A stretch of DNA of 29,048 bases. Source: a virus. The position numbers and the translations under genes were made by a program. Below are positions 12,429-26,361 of this stretch, piece by piece. Numbering within the stretch: the stretch's first letter is position 1; every line of letters begins with the position of its first letter. The notes beneath the pieces were generated by a model. That model saw nothing but the letters and a program-made list of their open reading frames with translations. It did not search any database and was not told the origin of the DNA. The DNA lies in IMG/VR virus record IMGVR_UViG_3300038701_001443, positions 1 to 29,048 of that record. The stretch is one strand, 5' to 3'.

Positions 12429-12884
12429 ATGGCCAAACCTGAGCATAACTCGCTGGTTCGCCAGCGGGCTGTTTCTGCATGTCTGAAGAAGTTCGACGAG
12501 CGCCCGCGCAAGTTTGGCTCGGCAGACTGTGTGAAGCTTGCCGCCTTGGCGCTTCGCAAACAGCGTGTCGCAGTGCCGCTGCTGCGAGGGGTGCAGTATC
12601 GCTCGCTGACCTCCGCCGTGCGCGCGCTGGAAGCCACCGGCTGCGCTGATCTGTGCGAAGCCATGGACGCGCTAGGCTTGTCTCGCATTGGTCCAGCAAT
12701 GACGTGGCCAGGAGATATTCTCGCCATGCCGGTTCCTGATGAAGATCCGTTCGGCGCGTCTCTCATGGTGGTGCATACCGCCGGTGCGCGCCGTGTGCTG
12801 GGCTTTGACGGCCATGGCGTTATTCGCGTGGTGCAGCCCGATCTTACCTGCTGCCTTGCTGCATGGAGAGTCGCAAATGGCTGA
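12429..12884 (+). CDS. Tail-tip protein, NlpC/P60-like (DUF6950-type)
   Basis: A 151-residue protein in the slot of the lambda gpK-like tip peptidase. An F-G-S-A-D-C-V-K-L-A-A segment (C34) matches the F-x-x-x-D-C motif of NlpC/P60-type and DUF6950 phage proteins, with C34 as candidate nucleophile. A W-P-G-D-I-L strand (around residue 95-100) and a G-F-D-G-H-G-V stretch further on could supply the His. If active it would cut peptidoglycan crosslinks during DNA entry. Activity is inference, since the second catalytic residue is not certain. It overlaps the J-like gene by eight bases. Confidence 0.65.
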   Translation: MAKPEHNSLVRQRAVSACLKKFDERPRKFGSADCVKLAALALRKQRVAVPLLRGVQYRSLTSAVRALEATGCADLCEAMDALGLSRIGPAMTWPGDILAMPVPDEDPFGASLMVVHTAGARRVLGFDGHGVIRVVQPDLTCCLAAWRVANG

Positions 12885-15800
12885 TCCTATTTCAGCAACG
12901 GTTGCGGCTATTGGGTCCGCCATCACGGCGGCGTCCGGTGCTGCGGCGGGCGCCACGTTGGCCCTGACCGGATCGGCAACATTGGCGGCTGCTGCGGGCA
13001 ATCTGGTGCTTGGCCTTGCCTCGTGGCAGACCGCTTTGACCGTGGCGGGCTTCGCCGCGTCCGCGCTGCTAACGCCTCAAGTCAATATCGAAGGCAGGCC
13101 GACCGACTGGCGCGCTGATCCTAATGCCGGGATTCCGTTCGTCATGGGCGAGCGAGCCACGTCTGGCATCATCGTTCACCGCGACGCCTACGGTCTGGAT
13201 AATCGCCTTCAGTCCATCGTGACGGTGTATTCGGGCGCGGGACCGATCCAGAGCTTTGATCAGTTCTATGCCGACGAAGTGGCCATGAGCTTTGACGCCA
13301 ACGGCGAGGCCACGAACGGCGGTAATTTCTCCGGCAATATGTGGCTTTACACCACGCCCGGCAATCAGCCCCAGTCGGCAGCGCTGGCAAATAACGCGGC
13401 GCTCAACAGCCAGATCGGCGGAAATGCTTTTGAGGGCTGGTCAACCGCGTCGAAAATCAGCGGCAAGGCGCACGCGCTTCTAACGCTTCGCCAAGACAGC
13501 AAGCTTGAAACCTACGCCGGGGGCATCCCTCGCACGCGCTTTAAGATGCGCGGCATCAAGATGTATGACCCGCGCCTTGATAGCACTGTGGCGGGCGGGT
13601 CTGGCTCGCACAGGGTCGCAGATCAATCCACCTACGCTTACTCTGAAAACCCGGCTATTGCTGCGCTTAACTGGTGCCTTGGCCTGAAAGAAAATGGCGT
13701 CGTGGTCGGCGGCATTGGCGCGACCGTTGACGGCATTGACCTTCCCGCATTCATCGAATGGGCGAACGTCTGCGATGCGAACGGCTGGACCGTCTCGGCT
13801 GTGCCGACCAGTGCCGACGATAAGCACCAAGTCTTGCTTGCATTGATGCAGGCCGGTGGGGCTCGTTATTCGCGCTTTCAGGGCAAGATGTCCTGCATCG
13901 TTCGCACGCCGCGCACTAGCGTTGCCACGCTCTCGGCAGACGATACCGCAGGCCCGTTCGAGGTTGATTTAAACGCTGACCGCCTGTCGCGCACGAACAC
14001 CATCACGCCGCGCTGTGTCATGGAGTCCCATGATTGGGAAATGGTCGCACAAGACCCGGTGTCCGAGGCGTCCTATGTGACCGCTGACGGCGGCGAACGC
14101 TCGCGCGGCATTGATTACCCCTATGTCTCGATCAAGGCCACGAACGCCAACAAGAACCAGCCCGCCGAGCTTGCCGCCTACGCCATCGTAGACAGCCGCG
14201 AAAGCATTGCCGGAACGGTCCCGCTCAAGCCTTGGGGCGCACAGATCGAGCCCGGCGATGTGTTCACGATTGATGAGCCGGGTTTTCTTCTTGATGGCGT
14301 TGAGCTGCTGTGCCTGCGTCGTGAGTTCGACCTTGCCAACAACATCGTGCGCATCAGCTTTATCAGCGAGACAGCAGGCAAGCACACCTATGCGCTGGGT
14401 TTGGACCCGACACCACCAACAGCGCCGAATCTGACCGCGCCGGATATTTACACGGTGGACGCGCCGGGTGCTGGCGTGTGGAGCGCGGCGGTGGCGTCTG
14501 GCAATCAGCCCGCTATCATCGTGACCGGCGATGCCGATCAGCTTAGTGCGCGGCAAATTATCGTCGAATACAGGACGGAAAATGACCCAAGCGACGGCCA
14601 GCCGTGGGCGGGTACTGATCAGGGTTGGGTGCAGTTTGCGCAATCCGACATATCGACCAGCACGGTTGATATCACCGGTCTTGAGCCCAATACGGCTTAT
14701 GAGGTCAGTGTCCGATATATTAGCCAGTTCGGCATCATTGGCGACCGGCGCAACCTGGGTGCTGTCACGACAGGCGGACTGACCGCAACCAATTCAGACC
14801 AGTTGCAAGGCTTCGATGCTGACTATTTTGATGACCAGATTGCAGCCGTTGAGCAGAGTCTAACAGACACAGCGGCAGCCCTTGATGCAGATGCTGAAAA
14901 CATTGTAGAAGCCGCTAATTCTGTGCGAGGCGCGCTCAATGATAGCCGCCGCAAATCCGCTAGAATTCTAGCTGAGACTACGGCGTCGCTTTCTGAAATA
15001 CTCTCTAATCAGGGAAGCGCTGCTGACAATAACGCAAGCCGAGTGCTTGAAATTAAAGAGCTTGAGGTTCGCGCTGACAACGCCGACGCCTCCTTTTCAG
15101 ATATTCTTGCGCTTAATGTGAGCCCGACAAGTGCGCTTGCAATCAACACAACAACTCTCCGCACGGAATTCGAGTTCGAGGTAGACCCCGCTAACCCCGG
15201 TTCTCTCGCCGCTCAAGTTGACGGCGTGGTTAATGACTTGTCTCAAAACTACATCACGTCGTCTGATATATCTGAGACGTATGTGGCTATTTCCAATTTT
15301 GATGACGAATTTGCGGGTTCGTTTGCGGCTTACGAATTCACCGTCGGCGCGCAAACCCGGACGGCGCAGGGTCATCTTGAGGCACAAGATAACGCGCTTT
15401 CAGACCGTTACACAAAAGCCGAGGTCGATAGCGTCACAGACGCCCTAGCTGAAACCGACCGCGCTAGCGCAAACACGCAGCGTCGGATTTTAGCTGAAAC
15501 GGCAGCGACTTTGGCAGAAGGCATAAGTAGCTCTTCTGCGCTGGCAGACAAAGAGCGCGCACTTTTCGAACGGGTGACATTTGCTGAGGTCGGCATCGCC
15601 AGCAACACAGCTCGGTATGACGATATCCTGACCTTGTCTGTGGACCAAAGCAGCGCGCTTATAACGCGTTTTGAAAGCCTGGAGGTTGAGTTTCAAGGCG
15701 GCGGTCGTGTTGCTGATATAGAGGACGATCTAGACCCCAATCAGACCGGATCATTGGCCCACACTGTGGCTGGAATTGAACAAGATTATCTGGTTTTCGC

Positions 15801-17334
15801 CAACGCTTCGGAGGCGTTTTCCTCACTAGGACTCACGCTAAACGCTTCGACTTTTCAGATCGACGAGGATATTGACCTACCGAGTCTTGAGGCTCGCGCC
15901 AAAACGGTCGTACGACAAGCAAGCGAACCGACGCCTGCAAATTATGAGGCAAACGATCTTTGGTACGATACCGACGACGGTGACAAGGCTTACGTTCACG
16001 ATGGTTCTGCTTGGCAAGCGCTCGGGATCGCGACTGAGAGTTGGGCGAACCAGAGGTTCACCACGTCTAGCGATGTCACATCGGCAATTTCCGCGTATGA
16101 GTTCACGCTTAACGCTGAACTAAATACTATTGCAGGCCATGTCGCTACTAGCCGAAGCCAGATCAGCGACCTTGACGCCGCGACCGCCGAAGCGGACCGC
16201 GCACAGGCCCGCCGCTTGAGCCGGACGCTGGCCGAGATTGCCGCGAACACAGCCAAAACCGTGGACGCTACGAACGCGCTTGTCGATGACCAACGGTCTG
16301 AGGTGACACGCACAACGCAGCTTCGCTCTGAGTTTGACGATGTGTCGGCTGATGTGGGCGTTCTGGCAAGCGCGTACACCGATGGCGCGGGTAACGCTCT
16401 GGCATCCTTTAGTGTTGTTACAGCGGCGTCAGGGTCTAACCCGGCTATCGTGCAGCTGAAGTCTGGTGACGGCGCGTCCGACGCGGCCATCGTTGCTGAT
16501 CGCGTGATGCTCGGCAATCTTGGCACTGGCGAGGATGAAGTGCGGCCAGTCTTTTTGGCACAGAATGGCGAAGCGCTATTCAACGAGCAGATCACGATTT
16601 ACGACGACATAGTGACACCTACCACCGCTGTGATTTTGGGTCCGAACATCGGCGCTGACGGTCTGACCTTGTGGGCTGGTGCTGCATCTGACGCCAGTTC
16701 CCCCACTCTTGCCAACGCCCAACTTGCGCTCGGAGCCTCTGCTGGCGCGCGCGTAAACGGGACCGTCTTGATTGACGGTTACGAGGTGAACCGGCTGTTT
16801 AGCTCCAGCCCTGACGCGCTGATCGGCGTTGATGGCTCTGACACGGTGGGCAAGGTCATCGCTCGCGCGGATATCGAGGGCGTGCGCTCGATCAATAGCT
16901 GGGCGCTCATGGGCTCGGTGATCGACTTTGCGGCGGCTGGCACAGGTACGATGCAGTCGGGCGACATCGCCAACTTTCGCCTGCGCGCCGCCGTCGCAAA
17001 TCCTCAAGCCTCCCCGCCCGCCATTGGCGACAGCATCACCGGCTTCACCAGCGGCGGGGCGGTGCGCGAATGGGATATCTCGTTTGACCATAGCGGCGAT
17101 ATAACAATTAAAAGTGCTTTAATTGCGGGTGCACCAGCCATCACGGTGGACGATCTTAACGACGAGCTGGGCTCGCTGATCGTGCGCTACGGCCAGACCG
17201 GCGACTGCTACGCCTATCTGTCAGCTAAATGGATGAGTACGAACGCCGCCGAGACTGCCGGGATCGTGCTGCGCTTTTCGACTAGCACCCGTCTCGCCGT
17301 CACCAACTTGCTCAATCGAAACACAGGAGCCTAA
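12877..17334 (+). CDS. Tail tip / host specificity protein, J-like
   Basis: A 1485-residue central tip protein that projects below the tail and binds the host surface. The start at 12877 (GGAGAG just upstream, MADPISATVAAIG) is preferred to the longer frame from 12739. It has an Ala/Gly-rich hydrophobic N-terminus, then the J-like body. A fibronectin-III-like domain lies at about 509-633 (T-A-P-N-L-T-A start; L-E-P-N-T-A-Y-E-V near the end). A coiled, Ala/Glu/Thr-rich repeat region (about 640-990) follows, then a G-D/N-D-L-W-Y-D-T-D-D-G-D-K-A-Y-V motif near 1026-1051, as in other fibres. The last third is beta-rich. Part of the repeat region (14800-15900) appears less GC-rich than the rest. 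Confidence 0.88.
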   Translation: MADPISATVAAIGSAITAASGAAAGATLALTGSATLAAAAGNLVLGLASWQTALTVAGFAASALLTPQVNIEGRPTDWRADPNAGIPFVMGERATSGIIVHRDAYGLDNRLQSIVTVYSGAGPIQSFDQFYADEVAMSFDANGEATNGGNFSGNMWLYTTPGNQPQSAALANNAALNSQIGGNAFEGWSTASKISGKAHALLTLRQDSKLETYAGGIPRTRFKMRGIKMYDPRLDSTVAGGSGSHRVADQSTYAYSENPAIAALNWCLGLKENGVVVGGIGATVDGIDLPAFIEWANVCDANGWTVSAVPTSADDKHQVLLALMQAGGARYSRFQGKMSCIVRTPRTSVATLSADDTAGPFEVDLNADRLSRTNTITPRCVMESHDWEMVAQDPVSEASYVTADGGERSRGIDYPYVSIKATNANKNQPAELAAYAIVDSRESIAGTVPLKPWGAQIEPGDVFTIDEPGFLLDGVELLCLRREFDLANNIVRISFISETAGKHTYALGLDPTPPTAPNLTAPDIYTVDAPGAGVWSAAVASGNQPAIIVTGDADQLSARQIIVEYRTENDPSDGQPWAGTDQGWVQFAQSDISTSTVDITGLEPNTAYEVSVRYISQFGIIGDRRNLGAVTTGGLTATNSDQLQGFDADYFDDQIAAVEQSLTDTAAALDADAENIVEAANSVRGALNDSRRKSARILAETTASLSEILSNQGSAADNNASRVLEIKELEVRADNADASFSDILALNVSPTSALAINTTTLRTEFEFEVDPANPGSLAAQVDGVVNDLSQNYITSSDISETYVAISNFDDEFAGSFAAYEFTVGAQTRTAQGHLEAQDNALSDRYTKAEVDSVTDALAETDRASANTQRRILAETAATLAEGISSSSALADKERALFERVTFAEVGIASNTARYDDILTLSVDQSSALITRFESLEVEFQGGGRVADIEDDLDPNQTGSLAHTVAGIEQDYLVFANASEAFSSLGLTLNASTFQIDEDIDLPSLEARAKTVVRQASEPTPANYEANDLWYDTDDGDKAYVHDGSAWQALGIATESWANQRFTTSSDVTSAISAYEFTLNAELNTIAGHVATSRSQISDLDAATAEADRAQARRLSRTLAEIAANTAKTVDATNALVDDQRSEVTRTTQLRSEFDDVSADVGVLASAYTDGAGNALASFSVVTAASGSNPAIVQLKSGDGASDAAIVADRVMLGNLGTGEDEVRPVFLAQNGEALFNEQITIYDDIVTPTTAVILGPNIGADGLTLWAGAASDASSPTLANAQLALGASAGARVNGTVLIDGYEVNRLFSSSPDALIGVDGSDTVGKVIARADIEGVRSINSWALMGSVIDFAAAGTGTMQSGDIANFRLRAAVANPQASPPAIGDSITGFTSGGAVREWDISFDHSGDITIKSALIAGAPAITVDDLNDELGSLIVRYGQTGDCYAYLSAKWMSTNAAETAGIVLRFSTSTRLAVTNLLNRNTGA

Positions 17335-19810: not shown

Positions 19811-20074
19811 ATGGACAAGCAAGACATCGGAGCGCCGGACATGGCCGATGAAGAACGCATCCGCGAAGTTGAGCGACAAGCGGCAGACGCAATGGCAAAG
19901 ATCAGCGCTCATGAGGATTTGTGCGCCCTTCGTTATGAAGGCATTCAAGAAAAGCTGGGCGACTTGAAGAAGCTCCTATTCATCCTCGCCGGTGGCCTTG
20001 TGGCTGTGCTTGGCGGGCCGGAAGCGGTGGAAAGCGTCGCGCGCGCCGCTGGTGCGCTGACCGGGGCCGGGTGA
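19811..20074 (+). CDS. Holin-like / XhlA-like membrane protein
   Basis: An 87-residue protein with a charged helical N-terminal half (about 12-52, many Glu, Arg, Lys and Ala) and one hydrophobic segment, L-L-F-I-L-A-G-G-L-V-A-V-L-G-G (about 55-69), then an Ala/Gly tail. This layout resembles XhlA-type membrane proteins and one-TM holins, with a long cytoplasmic coiled helix and a single membrane helix. It stands before the endolysin with TGATG overlap. It most likely makes the inner membrane lesion or helps the endolysin to act. No second TM segment is visible, so a classic two-TM holin is not supported. An alternative start at residue 11 is possible. Confidence 0.68.
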   Translation: MDKQDIGAPDMADEERIREVERQAADAMAKISAHEDLCALRYEGIQEKLGDLKKLLFILAGGLVAVLGGPEAVESVARAAGALTGAG

Positions 20075-20517
20075 TGGCGCGGATTACCAAACACTTCACT
20101 TGGCACGAGGCGACCCACTCGGACACCGCCAAGCGCAAGGGCCTGAAGAATGACCCGCCTGCGGATATCCAGGGCAATATTGAGATTGCAGCCGAAGGCA
20201 TGGAAGCGGTTCGCTCATTGCTAGGCGTGCCGCTCAAGGTGACAAGCTGGTATCGCAGCCCGGGCGTAAACGCGGCGGTGGGTGGATCTAAAACCAGCGA
20301 CCACATCACAGGCTTTGCGGTGGACTTCCGCGCTGTAGGCCGCGACGCGCTGGCGTGCGCTAAAGTCATCGCCAACAGCCCGCTCTTGTTCGACCAGCTG
20401 ATCTGGTATCCCAGCCAGAACCGGCTCCATATCAGCTTTGCGCCGGCGCACCGCCGCGAGTTGATGACCAAGATTCCCGGCGGCTACGCAAAGGGGTTTG
20501 AGCGTGTTGGGTCTTAA
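20074..20517 (+). CDS. Endolysin, peptidase M15A family
   Basis: A 147-residue metallopeptidase that should cut the peptide part of peptidoglycan. It has the M15A pattern: F-T-W-H-E-A-T-H-S-D-T near the start, the R-S-P-G-V-N-A-A-V-G-G segment (61-71), and the zinc ligands H77 and D84 in S-D-H-I-T-G-F-A-V-D-F with H119 in L-H-I-S. The length is normal for phage M15A endolysins. It has no signal sequence, so release depends on the holin. I start at ATG 20074, which overlaps the holin-like stop as TGATG; a GTG one codon earlier is also possible. The C-terminus overlaps the Rz-like start. Confidence 0.92.
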   Translation: MARITKHFTWHEATHSDTAKRKGLKNDPPADIQGNIEIAAEGMEAVRSLLGVPLKVTSWYRSPGVNAAVGGSKTSDHITGFAVDFRAVGRDALACAKVIANSPLLFDQLIWYPSQNRLHISFAPAHRRELMTKIPGGYAKGFERVGS

Positions 20518-20923
20518 CAGATACCTGATCGGTGCGGGCGTTGGCCTGCTGGCTATCGTCGCGCTCTTATACTGGCGGCTCGATAGCGTGGCCGCTGACC
20601 GCGATAAATGGCGCGAGGACGCGCGCAGCAAGGCGGCGGTGATAGACACCCTGCAAAACGAAGCGGCGCGTTCTGAGGCCATTCTGGCGGCCTTGCGCGA
20701 AACGCAAGACAGCATTCGAGAAGATAGTGCGCGCACCCGCCGCGCTATTGCTGACCTGGAGCGAAGCAATGAAGAAGTGCGCGATTATCTGCGTGAGCCT
20801 ATTCCTGCCGATCTTGTCAGCGTGCTCTGGCCCGACCAAGACGGAGACGATCCGTCTGATGCCACCGGATCATCTAATGGAGCCGTGCGAGGTCAACGAC
20901 CCGCGCCCGCAAACCCCGGATAA
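20504..20923 (+). CDS. Rz-like inner-membrane spanin
   Basis: A 139-residue protein with an N-terminal membrane anchor (about residues 7-24, I-G-A-G-V-G-L-L-A-I-V-A-L-L-Y-W) and then a long Ala/Arg/Glu/Asp coiled coil in the periplasm (about 26-90), ending in a charged, Pro-rich tail. This is the i-spanin layout. It would join Rz1 to fuse inner and outer membranes after endolysin action. The GTG start at 20504 (AAGGGG seven bases before) is preferred to the TTG at 20498. It overlaps the endolysin by 14 bases, and the Rz1-like gene starts inside it in another frame. Confidence 0.85.
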   Translation: MLGLNRYLIGAGVGLLAIVALLYWRLDSVAADRDKWREDARSKAAVIDTLQNEAARSEAILAALRETQDSIREDSARTRRAIADLERSNEEVRDYLREPIPADLVSVLWPDQDGDDPSDATGSSNGAVRGQRPAPANPG

Positions 20924-21020
20924 CGCCGCGCTGATTGCCAGCCGCGATGCGTACCGTGAAGCCCTGACCCTGTGCAATGCAGACAAGGCGGCCCTTCGCC
21001 GCTGGGCTTCGCCAGAGTAG
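20769..21020 (+). CDS. Rz1-like outer-membrane spanin lipoprotein
   Basis: An 83-residue lipoprotein starting inside the Rz-like gene in a different frame and extending past it. It begins MKKCAIICVSLFLPILSAC: a signal peptide ending in the lipobox L-S-A-C, with C19 as the lipid-bearing residue. The mature part is about 65 residues with several Pro (M-P-P-D-H, D-P-R-P-Q-T-P-D), as in o-spanins. GGAG lies near the ATG at 20769. The upstream start at 20727 lacks a signal and is less likely. Together with Rz it should bridge the envelope in the last step of lysis. Confidence 0.88.
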   Translation: MKKCAIICVSLFLPILSACSGPTKTETIRLMPPDHLMEPCEVNDPRPQTPDNAALIASRDAYREALTLCNADKAALRRWASPE

Positions 21021-21062
21021 CGCACTTACGCGCTCCCCTTCACATAGCGGGAGAACCGCAGC

Positions 21063-22823
21063 ATGGCCCGTGGTGACAATAACCGCAAGGTGTCTGATCG
21101 CGACGTTATCAGCGCACTTCATCGGCATGGTGGCAACATCAGCGCTGTTTCGCGTGAACTTGGGATATCGAGAAAGAACGTCCGGCTCCGCCGTGAAAAG
21201 CTGCGTGCAAAGGGTGTCGATCTGCCCCTGTCGCCATGGAACCCATCAGCTGGCGAGCCGCAGCCCAAAGATTTTATTGAGCCTGTTGCAGTGCATCTAA
21301 GCGCTGGCCGGGTTGAACCGCGCGGAGCGCTGGGGCGAGAGCTACCGCCGCCCGGTCAGGTCGCCACATACCTGATGACCGCAGCGACTAATAACACGGA
21401 CGTGCACGCCGCGCTCTGGCAAAACATCCAAGCGCTACGGCTGCATTATTCCAAACATGGCCCCTGCGAAATTCTAGTTCGGCGCATTGGCTATAACCTC
21501 GCAGAGTGGCGGCGGCGCGGCGCGTCGAACGAGGTAGAAGCTGACGAGAACGGTGACCCGATCCGCTTTGCCCCTGAGCTGGCAGATTATATCTGTGATG
21601 AGCGCGTGCAGCTTGCGCCGGGTGTATGCTGGGCTGGTGACGCTCCGGTCAGCGCAACTGCCGTAAGCCCGCTATCAGGATATGACACATTTACCGGCGA
21701 AGATTCCGGTGTCTTTGGCGCGACCAAGCTAGAGATGCGTTCGATTGCCACCATGCAGGGCTTGCCTGCAAAGCATATCATGACGACCGGCGCGGTGACG
21801 CAGCGCAACTATTCAGAGACAAAGGCCGGTCAGAAGGCGGACTTCCACCACGTTTTTGGCTGCACCCTGGTAGAAGTGGAAAGCGACGGCACGTGGTTTA
21901 TGCGCCCCATTGTGGCTGAAGATGACGGCACGATACGGGATCTGAATATCACGGTGCGCGGTGGCGAGGTCATTCACGAGCGCAACGCGGCTGCGCTCGC
22001 ACCCGGTGACGTTCACGTCGCAGAGCTTCACCCCGACATTAGAGAAGCCATTTACGGCCCTGACGGCATGACAGACACGCTCAAGCCCGGCGTGTTGCTT
22101 CACAATGACCTGCACGACCACAAGGCCCGATCTCACCACGACAGCCGCGACCCGTTCCGGCGCTATCAGCTGCACCGCGAAGGCGCTGACGATGTAGAGC
22201 ACGAGATTGAAGCAGACGCGGAGTTTTTGCGCTACGCCGCGCGGCCCTGGATGGATCAAGTCGTCGTTGGCTCAAACCATGACGACCACTTGCACCGCTG
22301 GCTAAAGGATGCCGACTGGCGAGCCGATCCGGTCAATGCTGCTTTTTATCTGGAAGCTGCCTGCAAGGTGGTTCACGCCATCCGCGATGACGACCGAGAC
22401 TTTCACCTTCTTGAATGGGCCTGCAGGACGAAGGGCGCACCTGACGACGTGGTGTTTCTGCGCACCGATCAAAGCTTCGTGATTGAAGGCGTTGAATGCG
22501 GATTGCATGGCGACCGGGGACCGAACGGCGCGCGCGGATCAGCGCGCAACCTTTCGCGCATCGGCATGAAAACGACCATCGGCCATTCGCACAGCCCGGC
22601 CATTGTTGACGGTTGCTGGCAGGCGGGCGTTACCGCTGGCGACCCTGACGAACCGCGCATGGACTACGCGACAGGGCCTAGCTCATGGAGCCGGACGCAT
22701 ATCATTCAATATGTAGGCGGAAAGCGCACGATGGTCACGATGCGGGGGCCGCGTTGGCGGGCTGATCGTGTGGGGACTTTTGTGGGGACTCACTGCGGGC
22801 GTTCCGAGTCTGTTCACCCCTAA
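21063..22823 (+). CDS. HTH plus metallophosphoesterase protein (possible T5 A1-like)
   Basis: A 586-residue protein with an N-terminal Fis-like helix-turn-helix (about 9-50; N-I-S-A-V-S-R-E-L-G-I-S-R-K-N-V) and a C-terminal metal-dependent phosphoesterase. All five motifs of the calcineurin/Mre11 superfamily can be seen in order: D-V-H (D316, H318), H-N-D-L-H (D349), G-S-N-H-D-D-H (N405, H406), H-G-D (H482) and G-H-S-H (H508, H510). This layout recalls proteins labelled phage A1 (named after T5 A1, tied to host DNA breakdown), but that is memory and unverified. It lies 42 bases after Rz1, with GGGAG before its ATG, and its last codons contain half of the putative integrase arm sites. A nuclease, nucleotidase or anti-defence role is possible. 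Confidence 0.8.
   Translation: MARGDNNRKVSDRDVISALHRHGGNISAVSRELGISRKNVRLRREKLRAKGVDLPLSPWNPSAGEPQPKDFIEPVAVHLSAGRVEPRGALGRELPPPGQVATYLMTAATNNTDVHAALWQNIQALRLHYSKHGPCEILVRRIGYNLAEWRRRGASNEVEADENGDPIRFAPELADYICDERVQLAPGVCWAGDAPVSATAVSPLSGYDTFTGEDSGVFGATKLEMRSIATMQGLPAKHIMTTGAVTQRNYSETKAGQKADFHHVFGCTLVEVESDGTWFMRPIVAEDDGTIRDLNITVRGGEVIHERNAAALAPGDVHVAELHPDIREAIYGPDGMTDTLKPGVLLHNDLHDHKARSHHDSRDPFRRYQLHREGADDVEHEIEADAEFLRYAARPWMDQVVVGSNHDDHLHRWLKDADWRADPVNAAFYLEAACKVVHAIRDDDRDFHLLEWACRTKGAPDDVVFLRTDQSFVIEGVECGLHGDRGPNGARGSARNLSRIGMKTTIGHSHSPAIVDGCWQAGVTAGDPDEPRMDYATGPSSWSRTHIIQYVGGKRTMVTMRGPRWRADRVGTFVGTHCGRSESVHP
22769..22789 (+). repeat. Paired arm-type repeats, left of attP core
   Basis: Two direct copies of TGTGGGGAC at 22769-22777 and 22781-22789, a 12-base period, at the end of the phosphoesterase gene. 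The same unit pair with the same period lies on the other side of the att core (23013-23033). A further TGTGGGG lies in the opposite orientation at 22827-22833. Arrangement and place fit integrase arm-binding sites. Confidence 0.6.
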
Positions 22824-22847
22824 TCGCCCCACAAACCCTGATTTCCT

Positions 22848-22878
22848 ATAGCCCTATTTTCGACCGGATAGCCCTTAT
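22848..22878 (+). repeat. Direct repeats ATAGCCCT in the P arm
   Basis: ATAGCCCTAT at 22848-22857 and ATAGCCCTTAT at 22868-22878 begin exactly 20 bases apart, about two helical turns, between the left arm sites and the att core. Short in-phase direct repeats of this kind are used by excisionases. The binding protein is inferred, with the Xis-like gene at 23895-24236 as candidate. Confidence 0.35.
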
Positions 22879-22916
22879 ATACAAGGGAAAAACCGTGACT
22901 CTCTCTGCCTCCGCCT

Positions 22917-22966
22917 CTCGATTGTGGATCTAGAGGTCCCCCGTTCGAACCGGGGAGGCGGTACCA
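22917..22966 (+). other. attP core: 3' half of a tRNA-His-like gene
   Basis: From the anticodon arm on, the sequence folds as a tRNA 3' half. A 7-base loop TTGTGGA has anticodon GTG (22924-22926). Then come a 5-base variable region, a T arm CCCCG-TTCGAAC-CGGGG (22939-22955), acceptor strand AGGCGGT, A73 and CCA (22964-22966). The 5' half (acceptor and D arm) is absent upstream. One mismatch in the anticodon stem (22919/22931) suggests identity starts near 22920. Tyrosine integrases often use this part of a tRNA gene as att core. A73 on tRNA-His fits Alphaproteobacteria. Confidence 0.8.
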
Positions 22967-22989
22967 TAATTTCAAGACCTTAGAGCCGG

Positions 22990-24069
22990 TCATTGGTCCC
23001 CGTCCTCGTCATTGTGGGGGATTTTGTGGGGACCTGCCGCCATTTTCTGAAGCGCGTCATAGACCGCATCTTCGGCAGGCCGGGCATAAATCCGCGTCGT
23101 GCTGACATGGGCGTGACCAAGCAGCCGTTGTGCTGCGGCAAGGTCGCCTGTGGCCCGCAAGAAGGCGGTGCCAGCGAAGTGACGCCATTCATGCGCCGCT
23201 CGCGCGCCCTTGATCCCGACCCGCGCATAGGCCCGCTTCATGGCGGTCTGAAATGTGGCTGGTGGGACGGCGCTGATCTCCCCGCTCTCATGCTCTCGAT
23301 ACCAGACTGTGTTCAGGCCCGCATTACGCGCCCGGTCGGCTCGAACGCGCATCATGTCCAGGTCAGCCGGTATAAGCCGGATGGTGTGGGGCTCACCTCC
23401 CTTGCGCTCGCGAAGCATAATGCGGCCCGTGTCTTCATCGAAATTGCGCAACGGAAACCATGCCTCTTTCAGCCGGACGCCATACCGGGCGAAAAATGCC
23501 AGGATGATGCGGTGGTGAGGCAAAAGCGTTTCAGCGACCGCGCGCACCTCGGCGGCAGTAAATTCGTAATGGCGTGTGCCGGATTCCTTTAAGCGCAGAT
23601 CATCCCAGTCTATATCCTGCACGTCAGCGCGAAGATGCTTACGGGCGTATTTCAGCGCCGGTCGCATCGTGTCGATGATTTCCCGGTTGACCGTGGCGTT
23701 AGTCGGGCGGCGGCCGTTGTGAGTAGTCTCGGCTCTGCGGTCGGCAATGCCCTGGGCTATAAACCCGGTGTCAATCACGCTCACATCTGTGTTCATATCA
23801 AACACCCGCTCACAGACCTTGAGCTGAAAGGCAATGGTGCGCGCGCTGGCAAGGTGTCGGGCGTGACCTTCAAACCATGCGGCCAGCGCCGTCATCAGCG
23901 TGACGCCTTCAGCATGGCGTCCCATGGCGAGGCGCTTGATCCTGTCTCGCTCGCGGCGTTCAAATTCTTCCGCCGCTCGCTTGTTCGTCTCGCGCGTAGT
24001 GCCTCGGAAACGCTGGCCGTTGAAGACGAATTCGTAATGGTAGACCTTGCCTCTTTTAGCGACTCCCAC
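22990..24069 (-). CDS. int: Tyrosine integrase
   Basis: A 359-residue site-specific recombinase. The N-terminal part (about 1-50) looks like an arm-binding domain: K-R-G-K-V-Y-H-Y-E-F-V-F-N-G-Q-R-F-R-G with a basic helix after it. The core-binding domain follows (about 55-145). The catalytic domain has R199 (Y-G-V-R-L-K-E), K223, H293 and R296 (H-E-W-R), H319 (L-G-H-A-H) and the nucleophile Y328 (T-R-I-Y-A). All key residues are present, so it should be active. Its GTG start lies inside the upstream Xis-like frame (175-base overlap). The stop lies 24 bases from the tRNA-like attP core, and the last codons hold two arm-type repeats. It should insert the phage into a tRNA-His gene. Confidence 0.95.
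   Translation of the reverse strand: MGVAKRGKVYHYEFVFNGQRFRGTTRETNKRAAEEFERRERDRIKRLAMGRHAEGVTLMTALAAWFEGHARHLASARTIAFQLKVCERVFDMNTDVSVIDTGFIAQGIADRRAETTHNGRRPTNATVNREIIDTMRPALKYARKHLRADVQDIDWDDLRLKESGTRHYEFTAAEVRAVAETLLPHHRIILAFFARYGVRLKEAWFPLRNFDEDTGRIMLRERKGGEPHTIRLIPADLDMMRVRADRARNAGLNTVWYREHESGEISAVPPATFQTAMKRAYARVGIKGARAAHEWRHFAGTAFLRATGDLAAAQRLLGHAHVSTTRIYARPAEDAVYDALQKMAAGPHKIPHNDEDGDQ
23013..23033 (+). repeat. Paired arm-type repeats, right of attP core
   Basis: TGTGGGGGA at 23013-23021 and TGTGGGGAC at 23025-23033, again with a 12-base period and in the same orientation as the left pair. They lie inside the last codons of the integrase gene, about 47 bases from the core. The spacing is asymmetric (about 130 bases on the left), as in typical attP sites. 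Confidence 0.6.
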
Positions 24070-24236
24070 CGTTTGCGTGCCTCGTACTCGTCCAGATCAT
24101 CCGGGCGATAACGCACTGTGCGCGGCCCGATCTTCAGGCGAGGCAATTCACCCGATACTGAAAGCGCGCGCAAGGTTTTTCGGTCCACACGGAGCCGGTC
24201 GCACACTTCACGGGTTGTGAGGAGGCGCGCACACAT
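23895..24236 (-). CDS. xis: Excisionase/AlpA-like MerR-type HTH protein
   Basis: A 113-residue reading frame whose first 60 residues are a classic HTH_17/AlpA domain: L-L-T-T-R-E-V-C-D-R-L-R-V-D-R-K-T-L then L-P-R-L-K-I-G-P-R-T-V-R-Y and D-D-L-D-E-Y. This form is common for excisionases and prophage regulators. It lies directly before int, and its ATG (24236) is one base from the stop of the Ea22-like gene. The last 55 or so residues (Ser/Ala/Arg rich) overlap the integrase frame by 175 bases and look like a by-product of that frame, so the original stop may have been lost. It probably directs excision or controls int. Longer starts (24302) run into the upstream gene and are less likely. Confidence 0.8.
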   Translation of the reverse strand: MCARLLTTREVCDRLRVDRKTLRALSVSGELPRLKIGPRTVRYRPDDLDEYEARKRWESLKEARSTITNSSSTASVSEALRARRTSERRKNLNAASETGSSASPWDAMLKASR

Positions 24237-24237
24237 G

Positions 24238-25065
24238 TCAGGAAGCCTTGCTGTCCACAAGCTCGCGCGAAAGATCGCGCACCTGTGTCGCCATGTCGTC
24301 AAGGCTCAATGCATTGTCCATATCAATCGCCTTGGTCAGGCCAATATCAATCCGACGCAGACCAGCCTCCAGCTCCTCAATCCGTTCAAGCATGGCGTCA
24401 CGCTCTGCCTCTGCTTCGTTAGCCCGTTCCCCCTCGCACATTGCCTGACCGGCTAGGTAAACGTTTCTCGCCTCCAGCTCATCAATACGATCAAGCATGG
24501 CCTCGGCGTTGTTGCGGAGGGCGGTGATAAGGGCAGCGTTGGCTCTGTCCTCATCGCCAAGCCCGCCAATGTTTTCAGCTACTATATCGGCAAACTCCGG
24601 GTCAGGATTACCAGCCCAAACGTCGTCTTGAGAGCTATACCACTCCTCCGGCGTCGCCTTCGCCAGCAGCTCGCGGATATGTGAGAGGTCAGTCATCCCA
24701 GATAAATTCGCTTCGTCAGCCTGGCGGTCAGCTTCCGCAATTAACCGCCCCAGCAACGCATCCTCTACCTGCGCTTCTGTCTTGGCGTGGGGGAGGGCTG
24801 CGGTGAGGGCGGCGCGCGCGGCGGTGAATGGCTCGTCGCACACGGCCACATCGTCAATGGCTAGGCCACCTGCCTGAACCAGCTCCTCCGTCACCACAGG
24901 AGTGAAGCCAACGGATAGGCGCTTACAGATCAAAGCGCGGATAGTCTCAAGGCACTCCTCGTCGCTTTCATATAGTTCACCGCGCGCCGTTATTCTGACC
25001 TCAAGGTCGGCGATAAAGTCTTCAAACTCGCCAGCCGGTCCTGCGGGTGTTTGCTCACTGGTCAT
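24238..25065 (-). CDS. Ea22-like early phage protein
   Basis: A 275-residue acidic, helical protein of unknown role. The middle (about 125-190) has M-T-D-L-S-H-I-R-E-L-L-A-K-A-T-P-E-E-W followed later by D-E-D-R-A-N-A-A-L-I-T-A-L-R-N-N-A-E-A-M-L-D. This is the pattern of lambda Ea22-like proteins, which are variable early genes in the int-xis region. The C-terminal 80 residues form a coiled coil rich in Glu, Ala and Arg. The N-terminal 120 residues are helical with a few Cys and are not recognised. It overlaps the DUF1643 gene by 11 bases and precedes the Xis-like gene by one base, so it belongs to the early operon. Confidence 0.75.
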   Translation of the reverse strand: MTSEQTPAGPAGEFEDFIADLEVRITARGELYESDEECLETIRALICKRLSVGFTPVVTEELVQAGGLAIDDVAVCDEPFTAARAALTAALPHAKTEAQVEDALLGRLIAEADRQADEANLSGMTDLSHIRELLAKATPEEWYSSQDDVWAGNPDPEFADIVAENIGGLGDEDRANAALITALRNNAEAMLDRIDELEARNVYLAGQAMCEGERANEAEAERDAMLERIEELEAGLRRIDIGLTKAIDMDNALSLDDMATQVRDLSRELVDSKAS

Positions 25066-25552
25066 TGGTGTGGTCCTTCAAGCGCCAAGGCTTCAGAGGC
25101 TCGTTTTTGCGAATATACAAGGGGTGGCGGGGGCTTCCGTTTGCGGTCTGGCCTAAACACAACAGATCGAGGCCCTCATACTTTTCTGCAAATGCCGCTG
25201 CTTTCTCCGCTGCAAAAGGCATTGCGCCCCAAGCGCAGATGATGGGACCCTTAACGCTGTTGAGGACATAATCCATGTGGCCTAAATTGTCTGGCCCCAC
25301 AGGGTCTTTGGCGGACTTCAAGTTGGTGGGGTCGGTGGAGCGGAGGGCGAACAAATTAACGACTACTAAACCCGTCGCGCCTTCTCTCTTGGCAAAGCCG
25401 ATGCACCGACGAATTGTTGGGTCGTCTTCACTGGCGTCAGCTGTAGAAGGGTTCAGCATCACAAAACAAGCAAGCTTTTCATGGCTGCTCCAAACTCTTT
25501 TGAGCCAGTAGCGATAAGAACCGCACTTCGACATTAAAGCCAGGGACTCCAT
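25055..25552 (-). CDS. DUF1643 family protein
   Basis: A 165-residue protein with the clear DUF1643 pattern: G-S-Y-R-Y-W-L-K-R-V-W near the start, F-V-M-L-N-P-S-T-A-D-A followed by D-D-P-T-I-R-R-C, then G-L-V-V-V-N-L-F-A and D-P-V-G-P-D-N. The biochemical role of the family is unknown to me; it is frequent in phages and bacteria. I take ATG 25552 as start because it overlaps the previous stop (TGATG); an adjacent GTG and a later ATG exist. It may have been placed in the early operon as an accessory gene acting on nucleic acids or nucleotides, but no catalytic motif is evident. Confidence 0.88.
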   Translation of the reverse strand: MESLALMSKCGSYRYWLKRVWSSHEKLACFVMLNPSTADASEDDPTIRRCIGFAKREGATGLVVVNLFALRSTDPTNLKSAKDPVGPDNLGHMDYVLNSVKGPIICAWGAMPFAAEKAAAFAEKYEGLDLLCLGQTANGSPRHPLYIRKNEPLKPWRLKDHTNDQ

Positions 25553-26361
25553 CACACCACCTCCACAAGCTGAGAGACGCGGCGGCTAAAGTCTGCATCG
25601 CAAGCCTTTTTCAAAGCATCTAAATTGCCGAAGCATCCATTCTGCAAACCATAAAACGGGGGCAGGTCTTCGCTTTCCAAAGGCGGGCACGCATAAAGCT
25701 CAAACGCCGGTTCTCCATCTGGCTCAAGCGTGGTCGGACGCGCCATATAAAGGTACTCATCCGAGTTGATTGGGTTGGTGGCACCCCACTCTCCGCCGAT
25801 CTCCTCCCACTCAAGCGCCTTCACCTTCACAGGCCGGGCGTCTATGGCGTAGGCGACTTTGAGGGCAGATCGACCCTCATCTTTCCACCTCTTTTGCCAC
25901 TCTAAAGGCATACTATCAAAGTCTCTTACGCCCGTAATTAAACGAACACGCTCCCGCGCCCACGCTTCCACCGCCTCCTCACTCGCTTCAACCGGCAACC
26001 CGGCAGGTGGGATGAGGGACATAATGGCGTCGGTGGCCTCTTTCAGTCGCGTTGATCCGCCGAGGAAAGGCGCGAGCGCGGCTCGTATCTCCTCGCGCCC
26101 TTGGGGTTGGGTGGCGAGGGCGTCTGATCGCTCTTTCAACTCTCGCTGAAGTTTGAGGCAATGCTCGACGCCGGTCAGAAGCTCGTCACGCATCGGCCAG
26201 CACGCCCCGCCGCTTTCGCCCTCACCAAGCGCGTCCCTTGGCAGCGATTGCAGCGCGTCTCGGACAGCCAGCAGCGTGCGAGCCAGCGGCTCTTGCATTT
26301 CCAGCATAGCGGCATGTTGCGCGCGGATTTTAGCGTCTTCCAGTGTCGGTGTCTCAGTCAT
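25552..26361 (-). CDS. Hypothetical early protein
   Basis: A 269-residue protein that I do not recognise. The start MTETPTLEDAK at 26361 is chosen because it overlaps the previous gene by eight bases; the longer reading to 26439 runs through that gene. The first 130 residues are helical with many Arg, Glu and Ala. A Pro/Ala stretch and an amphipathic helix with W-A-R-E-R-V-R-L-I follow. The last 90 residues look beta-rich: V-K-V-K-A-L-E-W-E-E-I-G-G-E-W-G-A is a W-rich segment seen in phage early proteins. The two parts could be separate domains. No membrane segment is seen. Confidence 0.72.
   Translation of the reverse strand: MTETPTLEDAKIRAQHAAMLEMQEPLARTLLAVRDALQSLPRDALGEGESGGACWPMRDELLTGVEHCLKLQRELKERSDALATQPQGREEIRAALAPFLGGSTRLKEATDAIMSLIPPAGLPVEASEEAVEAWARERVRLITGVRDFDSMPLEWQKRWKDEGRSALKVAYAIDARPVKVKALEWEEIGGEWGATNPINSDEYLYMARPTTLEPDGEPAFELYACPPLESEDLPPFYGLQNGCFGNLDALKKACDADFSRRVSQLVEVV

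Follow-up and report, generated by a model that had tools for sequence, protein, structure and literature searches.

The DNA considered here, called the window below, comprises 29,048 nucleotides, positions 1–29,048 of the viral record IMGVR_UViG_3300038701_001443 of IMG/VR, and the gene in question lies at 21063–22823, encoding a protein with an N-terminal helix-turn-helix (HTH) and a calcineurin-type metallophosphoesterase domain. This protein is, with near certainty, a true member of the A1 family of phage T5 (phrog_1745), and as such the gene is no new discovery: both the HTH and the intact metal site are common in this already known family. New here is a two-way split of the family, in which the half containing the T5, phiCbK and pf16 proteins is found mainly among replication or pre-early genes, and the half containing the window protein among head or late genes where a placement could be made. 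For the window protein itself, the role towards which we lean is that of a late-expressed, HTH-targeted, metal-dependent DNA phosphodiesterase, which would degrade host or other unprotected DNA.

The A1-family protein of the window

The gene and its domains are laid out as follows (pLDDT, predicted local distance difference test score).

21063–22823, + strand: A1-family HTH-metallophosphoesterase gene; 586 amino acids, ATG start, ribosome-binding site GGAG 9 nt upstream; phrog_1745 E=1.2e-147
21090–21230, + strand: Fis-like HTH, N-terminal, residues ~10–56; HTH_8 at residues 17–46, modelled helices 12–21, 26–33 and 37–49
21345–21986, + strand: A1-specific N-domain, residues ~95–308; within the phrog_1745 match, pLDDT mostly >90
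21987–22778, + strand: calcineurin-type metallophosphoesterase domain, residues ~309–572; invariant ligands, domain model pLDDT 95.2, Foldseek matches to metallophosphoesterases

An earlier note on this DNA, made from the letters alone, had read the open reading frame (ORF) as a Fis-like HTH joined to a complete metallophosphoesterase, and had likened it to T5 A1. The first reading holds: HTH_8, the Fis/TyrR-type HTH model of Pfam, scores 27.4 bits (gathering cut-off 22), and all five metal-binding motifs occur in order. The relationship to T5 A1 proves closer than a likeness. In PHROGs, the protein matches phrog_1745 (“DNA transfer protein”) over residues 95–566 of 586 and profile positions 81–541 of 542, T5 A1 itself matches the same profile (E=8.5e-244), and the two proteins are 30% identical. 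Relatives of about 570–595 residues and 53% identity occur in other phage contigs, where they were recovered with an alignment as query, a single-protein query having given nothing; together with the phrog_1745 match, they place the ORF far beyond chance. The Pfam Metallophos model does not match the protein (at E<0.1, HTH families alone appear); the sequence has diverged beyond the Metallophos models. The last residues, ~570–586, are encoded at and past the left repeat of the phage attachment site (attP, below); they are not conserved, and most of them (573–586) are modelled with low confidence.

The calcineurin motifs were read from a 15-row alignment including T5 A1 and from a 75-row alignment of diverse homologues: GDxH (D316, H318), HD (D349), SNHD (N405, H406, D407), HG (H482) and GHxH (H508, H510). 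The window protein has GD-V-H, HND (with D349) and GHSH at the corresponding motifs, and R356, H358 and H359 follow shortly after D349. D316, H318, D349, N405, H406, D407, H482 and H510 are identical in 75/75 homologues and H508 in 74/75, and all metal ligands are common to the window protein and T5 A1. H406, named for mutation in the earlier note, is the motif III histidine. The invariance of the ligands across homologues argues for a catalytic role of the A1 family, as opposed to a purely structural or regulatory one, and the window protein is very probably an active phosphoesterase.

A full-length AlphaFold2 model, made with the 75-row alignment, has a pLDDT of 90.8 and a predicted template modelling (TM) score of 0.84. 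The HTH, N-domain and catalytic domain are all confident, and low confidence is confined to linkers around residues 75 and 155 and to the C-terminal tail; the catalytic domain modelled on its own reaches the higher pLDDT given above. Among solved structures in the PDB, Foldseek places the full-length model nearest MPPED2 (3rl5, E=2.4e-3) and then mainly near LysR-type regulators, the latter presumably through the HTH; among viral models it finds pf16 A1 (E=1.4e-62) together with numerous phage proteins of calcineurin-like type (matches to E=1.5e-8). The catalytic-domain model matches MPPED2, Mre11 with DNA, Rv0805 and PP2A/PP1 in the PDB, with a best E of 2.6e-3 and TM-scores of about 0.3–0.42. 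The structural model supports the fold of the calcineurin-like metallophosphoesterase superfamily, of which the protein would be a divergent member, given these TM-scores; Mre11/SbcD, MPPED2 and Rv0805 have this fold and the five metal-binding motifs in common with it. The profile search and structure prediction that the earlier note had proposed as a check thus returned a phosphoesterase fold, with the subfamily not resolved by Foldseek. For the A1 N-domain, Foldseek found no convincing solved relative in the PDB. A PDB sequence search with the window protein likewise gave no meaningful solved relative (a match to 3-dehydroquinate dehydratase was taken as chance), and neither Pfam, NCBIfam nor PDB sequences yielded a match to SbcD/Mre11; nor was an SbcC partner recognized in the window.

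Two halves of the A1 family

Trees of the family core (114 rows, quick searches, under LG+G4 and then the LG+C20 mixture) divide it in two, with support in the Shimodaira-Hasegawa-like approximate likelihood ratio test of 99 and 98 under the two models; rows from Bacteroidota, Endozoicomonas and candidate phyla switch sides between the two trees. With “early” and “late” standing for gene neighbourhoods and not for expression data, Group I (51 rows, among them the pre-early T5 protein, phiCbK and pf16) has 20 members in replication modules and 23 without a placement, while 7 lie in the late regions of prophage-like loci within bacterial genomes. Group II (63 rows, including the window protein, Cronusvirus and Nanhaivirus) has 25 members at the late end, where the tail/lysis genes finish, 11 in the head module, none in replication modules, and 27 unplaced. 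The window protein clusters with the proteins of two other loci, L017 and L018, with support 100.

The family is widespread. By tblastn, at least 1,123 phage records carry A1-family relatives, many of them annotated as A1, A1-like or DNA transfer protein, and another HTH plus metallophosphoesterase family, phrog_704, is found in 2,074; the earlier note’s view that this is not a standard siphovirus gene therefore fails. Its suggestion that this is the most likely new function in the window has also been overtaken, the A1 family being known: an HTH in the phiCbK A1 homologue was reported in 2012 (PMC3556154), and A1 orthologues of jumbo phages were assigned as calcineurin-like in 2021, with a predicted role against nucleotide-based defence (PMC7824862). 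An A1-like gene was found in none of 17 genomes carrying the attB-like transfer RNA (tRNA) described below, and in only 4 of 289 genomes of that class, so that the gene belongs mainly to phages.

Scored with a profile of the family’s own N-termini, 95 of the 114 non-redundant members are recognized as having an HTH, a figure that is partly circular, many of the scored rows having contributed to the profile and zinc-ribbon rows also being called positive. Independently of that profile, Pfam finds, for example, HTH_8 in 20/75 members and HTH_30 in 19/75. In four homologues (L111, L114, L115 and L116), from candidate-phyla assemblies (Parcubacteria/Lloydbacteria/Patescibacteria), a zinc ribbon stands in place of the HTH, of InsA type where Pfam resolves the type. 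With an HTH in most members and a zinc ribbon in these four, proteins of the A1 family usually carry one or another DNA-binding module. In T5 A1, no HTH is detectable.

Comparison with individual systems follows the same division. T5 A1 and the window protein share the N-domain, the metallophosphoesterase and the metal ligands, but differ in the detectable HTH and fall in opposite halves of the tree; T5 A1 is pre-early, encoded in the terminal repeat with A2 and dmp, whereas the window gene is late, behind Rz1 and beside attP (the T5 arrangement being a T5-type setting, not a requirement of the family). phiCbK gp126 and its relatives have, like the window protein, an A1 core with an N-terminal HTH (PMC3556154), but gp126 lies in a replication module, adjoining DNA methyltransferases and DNA polymerase. 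A similar setting is found for the A1-like protein of Cronusvirus, temperate phages of Rhodobacter (RcCronus gp22): the protein shows 41.5% identity and has an HTH, and its gene closes the series of late genes in a small temperate siphovirus, as in the window. RcCronus differs in that its endolysin lies elsewhere and that RepA/ParA are annotated instead of an integrase, which this phage does not have (PMC6836515).

The phrog_704 family (“DNA repair exonuclease”) resembles the window protein in combining an HTH with a metallophosphoesterase, and its member R4C ORF20 (L003:18610–19740) lies after the tail genes, in the slot of the Cronusvirus A1-like gene, R4C being Cronusvirus-like. It is shorter (376 residues), however, and lacks the A1 N-domain. 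Homology between the two catalytic domains was considered and not detected: hhalign of the family profiles aligns the HTH alone, over 42 columns, and the phrog_704 metal domain is nearer SbcD/Mre11 (weak E-values, 0.015–0.04).

Genomic setting and attP

The surroundings of the gene are as follows.

20071–20517, + strand: endolysin, M15 peptidase (Pfam, PHROGs)
20498–20923, + strand: Rz-like spanin (phrog_89, E=5e-13)
20727–21020, + strand: Rz1-like spanin, LysC family (PF23793 E=9e-13, phrog_456)
22770–22790, + strand: left direct repeat GTGGGG..TTTTGTGGGGAC, probable integrase arm site that overlaps the A1 gene at its 3' end; repeat also around the core in L018
22920–22966, + strand: attP core, the 3' part of tRNA-His (matched exactly over 47 bp in alphaproteobacterial genomes; called as tRNA-His by ARAGORN)
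23014–23034, + strand: right direct repeat GTGGGG..TTTTGTGGGGAC, probable integrase arm site; repeat also around the core in L018
22990–24069, – strand: tyrosine integrase (PF00589 E=9e-14, phrog_1)
23895–24302, – strand: excisionase-like HTH protein (PF12728 E=7e-11, phrog_66)
25055–25555, – strand: DUF1643/phrog_3230 gene, right of the integrase (E=1e-40 and 4e-58)

The window reads in order terminase, portal, capsid/protease, neck, tail, fibre, M15 endolysin, Rz/Rz1, A1 gene, attP; beyond attP come the integrase (int) and excisionase (xis) on the opposite strand, then DUF1643, further genes, NinB, an exonuclease and an annealing protein. The position between lysis genes and attP given in the earlier note is thereby borne out, with Rz/Rz1 upstream and the tRNA-His core, int and xis downstream. 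An Rfam scan of the attP stretch gave no match; the identity of attP is nevertheless settled by the exact 47-bp match to tRNA-His genes. This core, within 22770–23034, points to an alphaproteobacterial host. L018 has its core flanked by direct repeats in the same way, L018 and L019 share the order endolysin, A1, int, xis, and L017 has Rz/Rz1 before A1. Integration would leave the A1 gene outermost on one side of the prophage.

The A1 gene is on the strand of the late operon, 42 bp from Rz1, and the stretch 20900–23100 yielded no promoter-like site, for which reason its late co-transcription with the lysis genes is likely; judged from this arrangement, late expression of the gene is probable.

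Some other features of the window may be recorded here. A megablast search of positions 1–25000 against 50,697 phage records gave no match. For the large terminase subunit, the nearest counterparts (about 41%) are in Roseobacter phages, CRP-406 and CRP-821 among them; in the capsid gene, head protein and protease are fused (phrog_4523). As called, a phrog_2134 gene (12429–12884) and the 1531-residue fibre ORF (12739–17334) have 146 bp in common; the fibre protein probably starts further in.

Neighbors of A1 genes in other phages

A dATP/dGTP diphosphohydrolase (PF18909) lies near the A1 gene in 12 of 114 loci, at position +1 in 8 of them, and a ribonucleotide reductase, recognized from sequence and not by profile, in 13. 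A phrog_799-type DNA methyltransferase occupies position –1 in phiCbK, Lacusarx, Bajun and L073. Dmp was found in 14 of 50 records tested, a count that includes two weak matches and has no background rate beside it. These neighbors fit a setting of DNA breakdown and nucleotide salvage for the family; none of these four kinds of neighbor was found in the window record. Where a methyltransferase lies directly upstream of an A1 homologue (L009, L015, L016 and L073; phages of Caulobacter, Brevundimonas and Sphingobium), it could shield phage DNA from the enzyme.

Small transmembrane genes are directly upstream of A1 in 33% of loci, versus 0–9% at other positions. The commonest such family, phrog_6420 (~89 residues, its membrane segment at the C-terminus), stands immediately before A1 in 13/13 loci where it is found (L005, L007, L021, L022, L031, L050 and 7 more). 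A membrane partner of A1 was considered and rejected: phrog_6420 also occurs in the lysis cassettes of Pseudomonas phages, where its neighbors are endolysin or spanin genes and no A1 is annotated nearby, and for that reason it is probably better read as a lysis gene.

Possible functions

If the role proposed above is correct, the A1 gene would be transcribed late, following the lysis cassette as the final gene; the HTH would carry the enzyme to DNA; a two-metal site (probably Mn2+) would hydrolyse phosphodiester bonds; and in the late phase of infection the protein would break down the DNA of the host, or other DNA in the cell that lacks protection. On balance, and partly by analogy, DNA seems the most likely substrate, because most members carry a DNA-binding module and because of the T5 phenotype: T5 A1 mutants fail to degrade host DNA (PMC8541194; PMC13250531). 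Host DNA would be its presumed target. From its late position, the gene would be expected to act as infection ends, and Mre11 bound to DNA, among the best solved matches of the catalytic-domain model, was also counted in favor.

Several points weigh against this proposal. The late timing derives solely from gene order, and how phage DNA would escape the enzyme is left without explanation. No methyltransferase or A2 was recognized in the window, and no Dmp in the window or its nearest relatives (the records of L017–L020), although these records may be fragments. The absence of a detectable HTH from T5 A1 implies that the HTH is dispensable for T5’s function. Foldseek gives no separation between nuclease, cyclic-nucleotide phosphodiesterase and phosphatase, the best PDB match being the phosphodiesterase MPPED2.

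Another possibility, which we regard as rather unlikely, is that the enzyme cleaves cyclic or other signalling nucleotides of host defence, the HTH being secondary. MPPED2 as best solved structural match, with the cyclic-nucleotide phosphodiesterase Rv0805 close behind, is in keeping with this, as is the counter-defence role predicted for the jumbo-phage orthologues (PMC7824862); but it leaves both the DNA-binding module of most members and the T5 host-DNA phenotype unexplained, the gene position is late for counter-defence, and PADLOC gave no match linking the A1 gene to defence. The protein might instead be a transcription factor, altering phage or host transcription through its HTH and RNA polymerase binding, with the phosphoesterase serving that purpose or accessory to it. 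T5 A1 binds RNA polymerase, the authors of the phiCbK study favored a transcriptional view (PMC3556154), and the HTH-phosphoesterase that R4C has at the corresponding place carries the annotation of transcriptional regulator. It is, however, the metal ligands that are invariant, whereas a minority of members, T5 A1 included, have lost the HTH or have something else in its place, and a regulator would not be expected as the last of the late genes; we consider this role unlikely.

The family name “DNA transfer protein” raises the question of a role in DNA entry, for a protein carried in the virion or ejected from it. Second-step transfer in T5 depends on A1 (PMC13250531), this requirement, like that for host DNA degradation, being known for T5 only, and 11 homologues lie in the head module. 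T5 A1, however, acts after synthesis in the cell from pre-early DNA, an HTH plus enzyme is unlike a virion protein, and the literature on Pan1 and R5C, whose text is silent on the point, reports no A1-like protein in the particle, which leaves such a role very unlikely. Equally improbable is a lysogeny accessory gene (moron) acting against superinfecting DNA: its expected place, last at one prophage end and adjoining attP, would suit this, but the gene is on the late-operon strand, only 42 bp away and with no promoter-like site found, and a tyrosine integrase is present in only 7 of 47 records of relatives tested, so that the A1 gene is not tied to lysogeny.

Returning to the proposed late DNA phosphodiesterase, the two halves of the tree could correspond to two functional kinds: early proteins of host takeover, of T5/phiCbK type, and, in the late-module half (window, Cronusvirus, Nanhaivirus and others), an HTH-guided, DNA-destroying enzyme acting as infection ends, perhaps to clear away remaining DNA of the host or of competitors at lysis. 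We put this forward as possible but doubtful; if it is true, the late-module half would have a function different from that of T5 A1. For decades it has been an open question how T5 A1 leads to the degradation of host DNA, and no nuclease activity has been reported. The metal site, invariant across both the early and the late halves, and a small phage with a clean genetic context make this question testable by point mutants, and the early/late split suggests that one enzyme family has been reused at two stages of infection.
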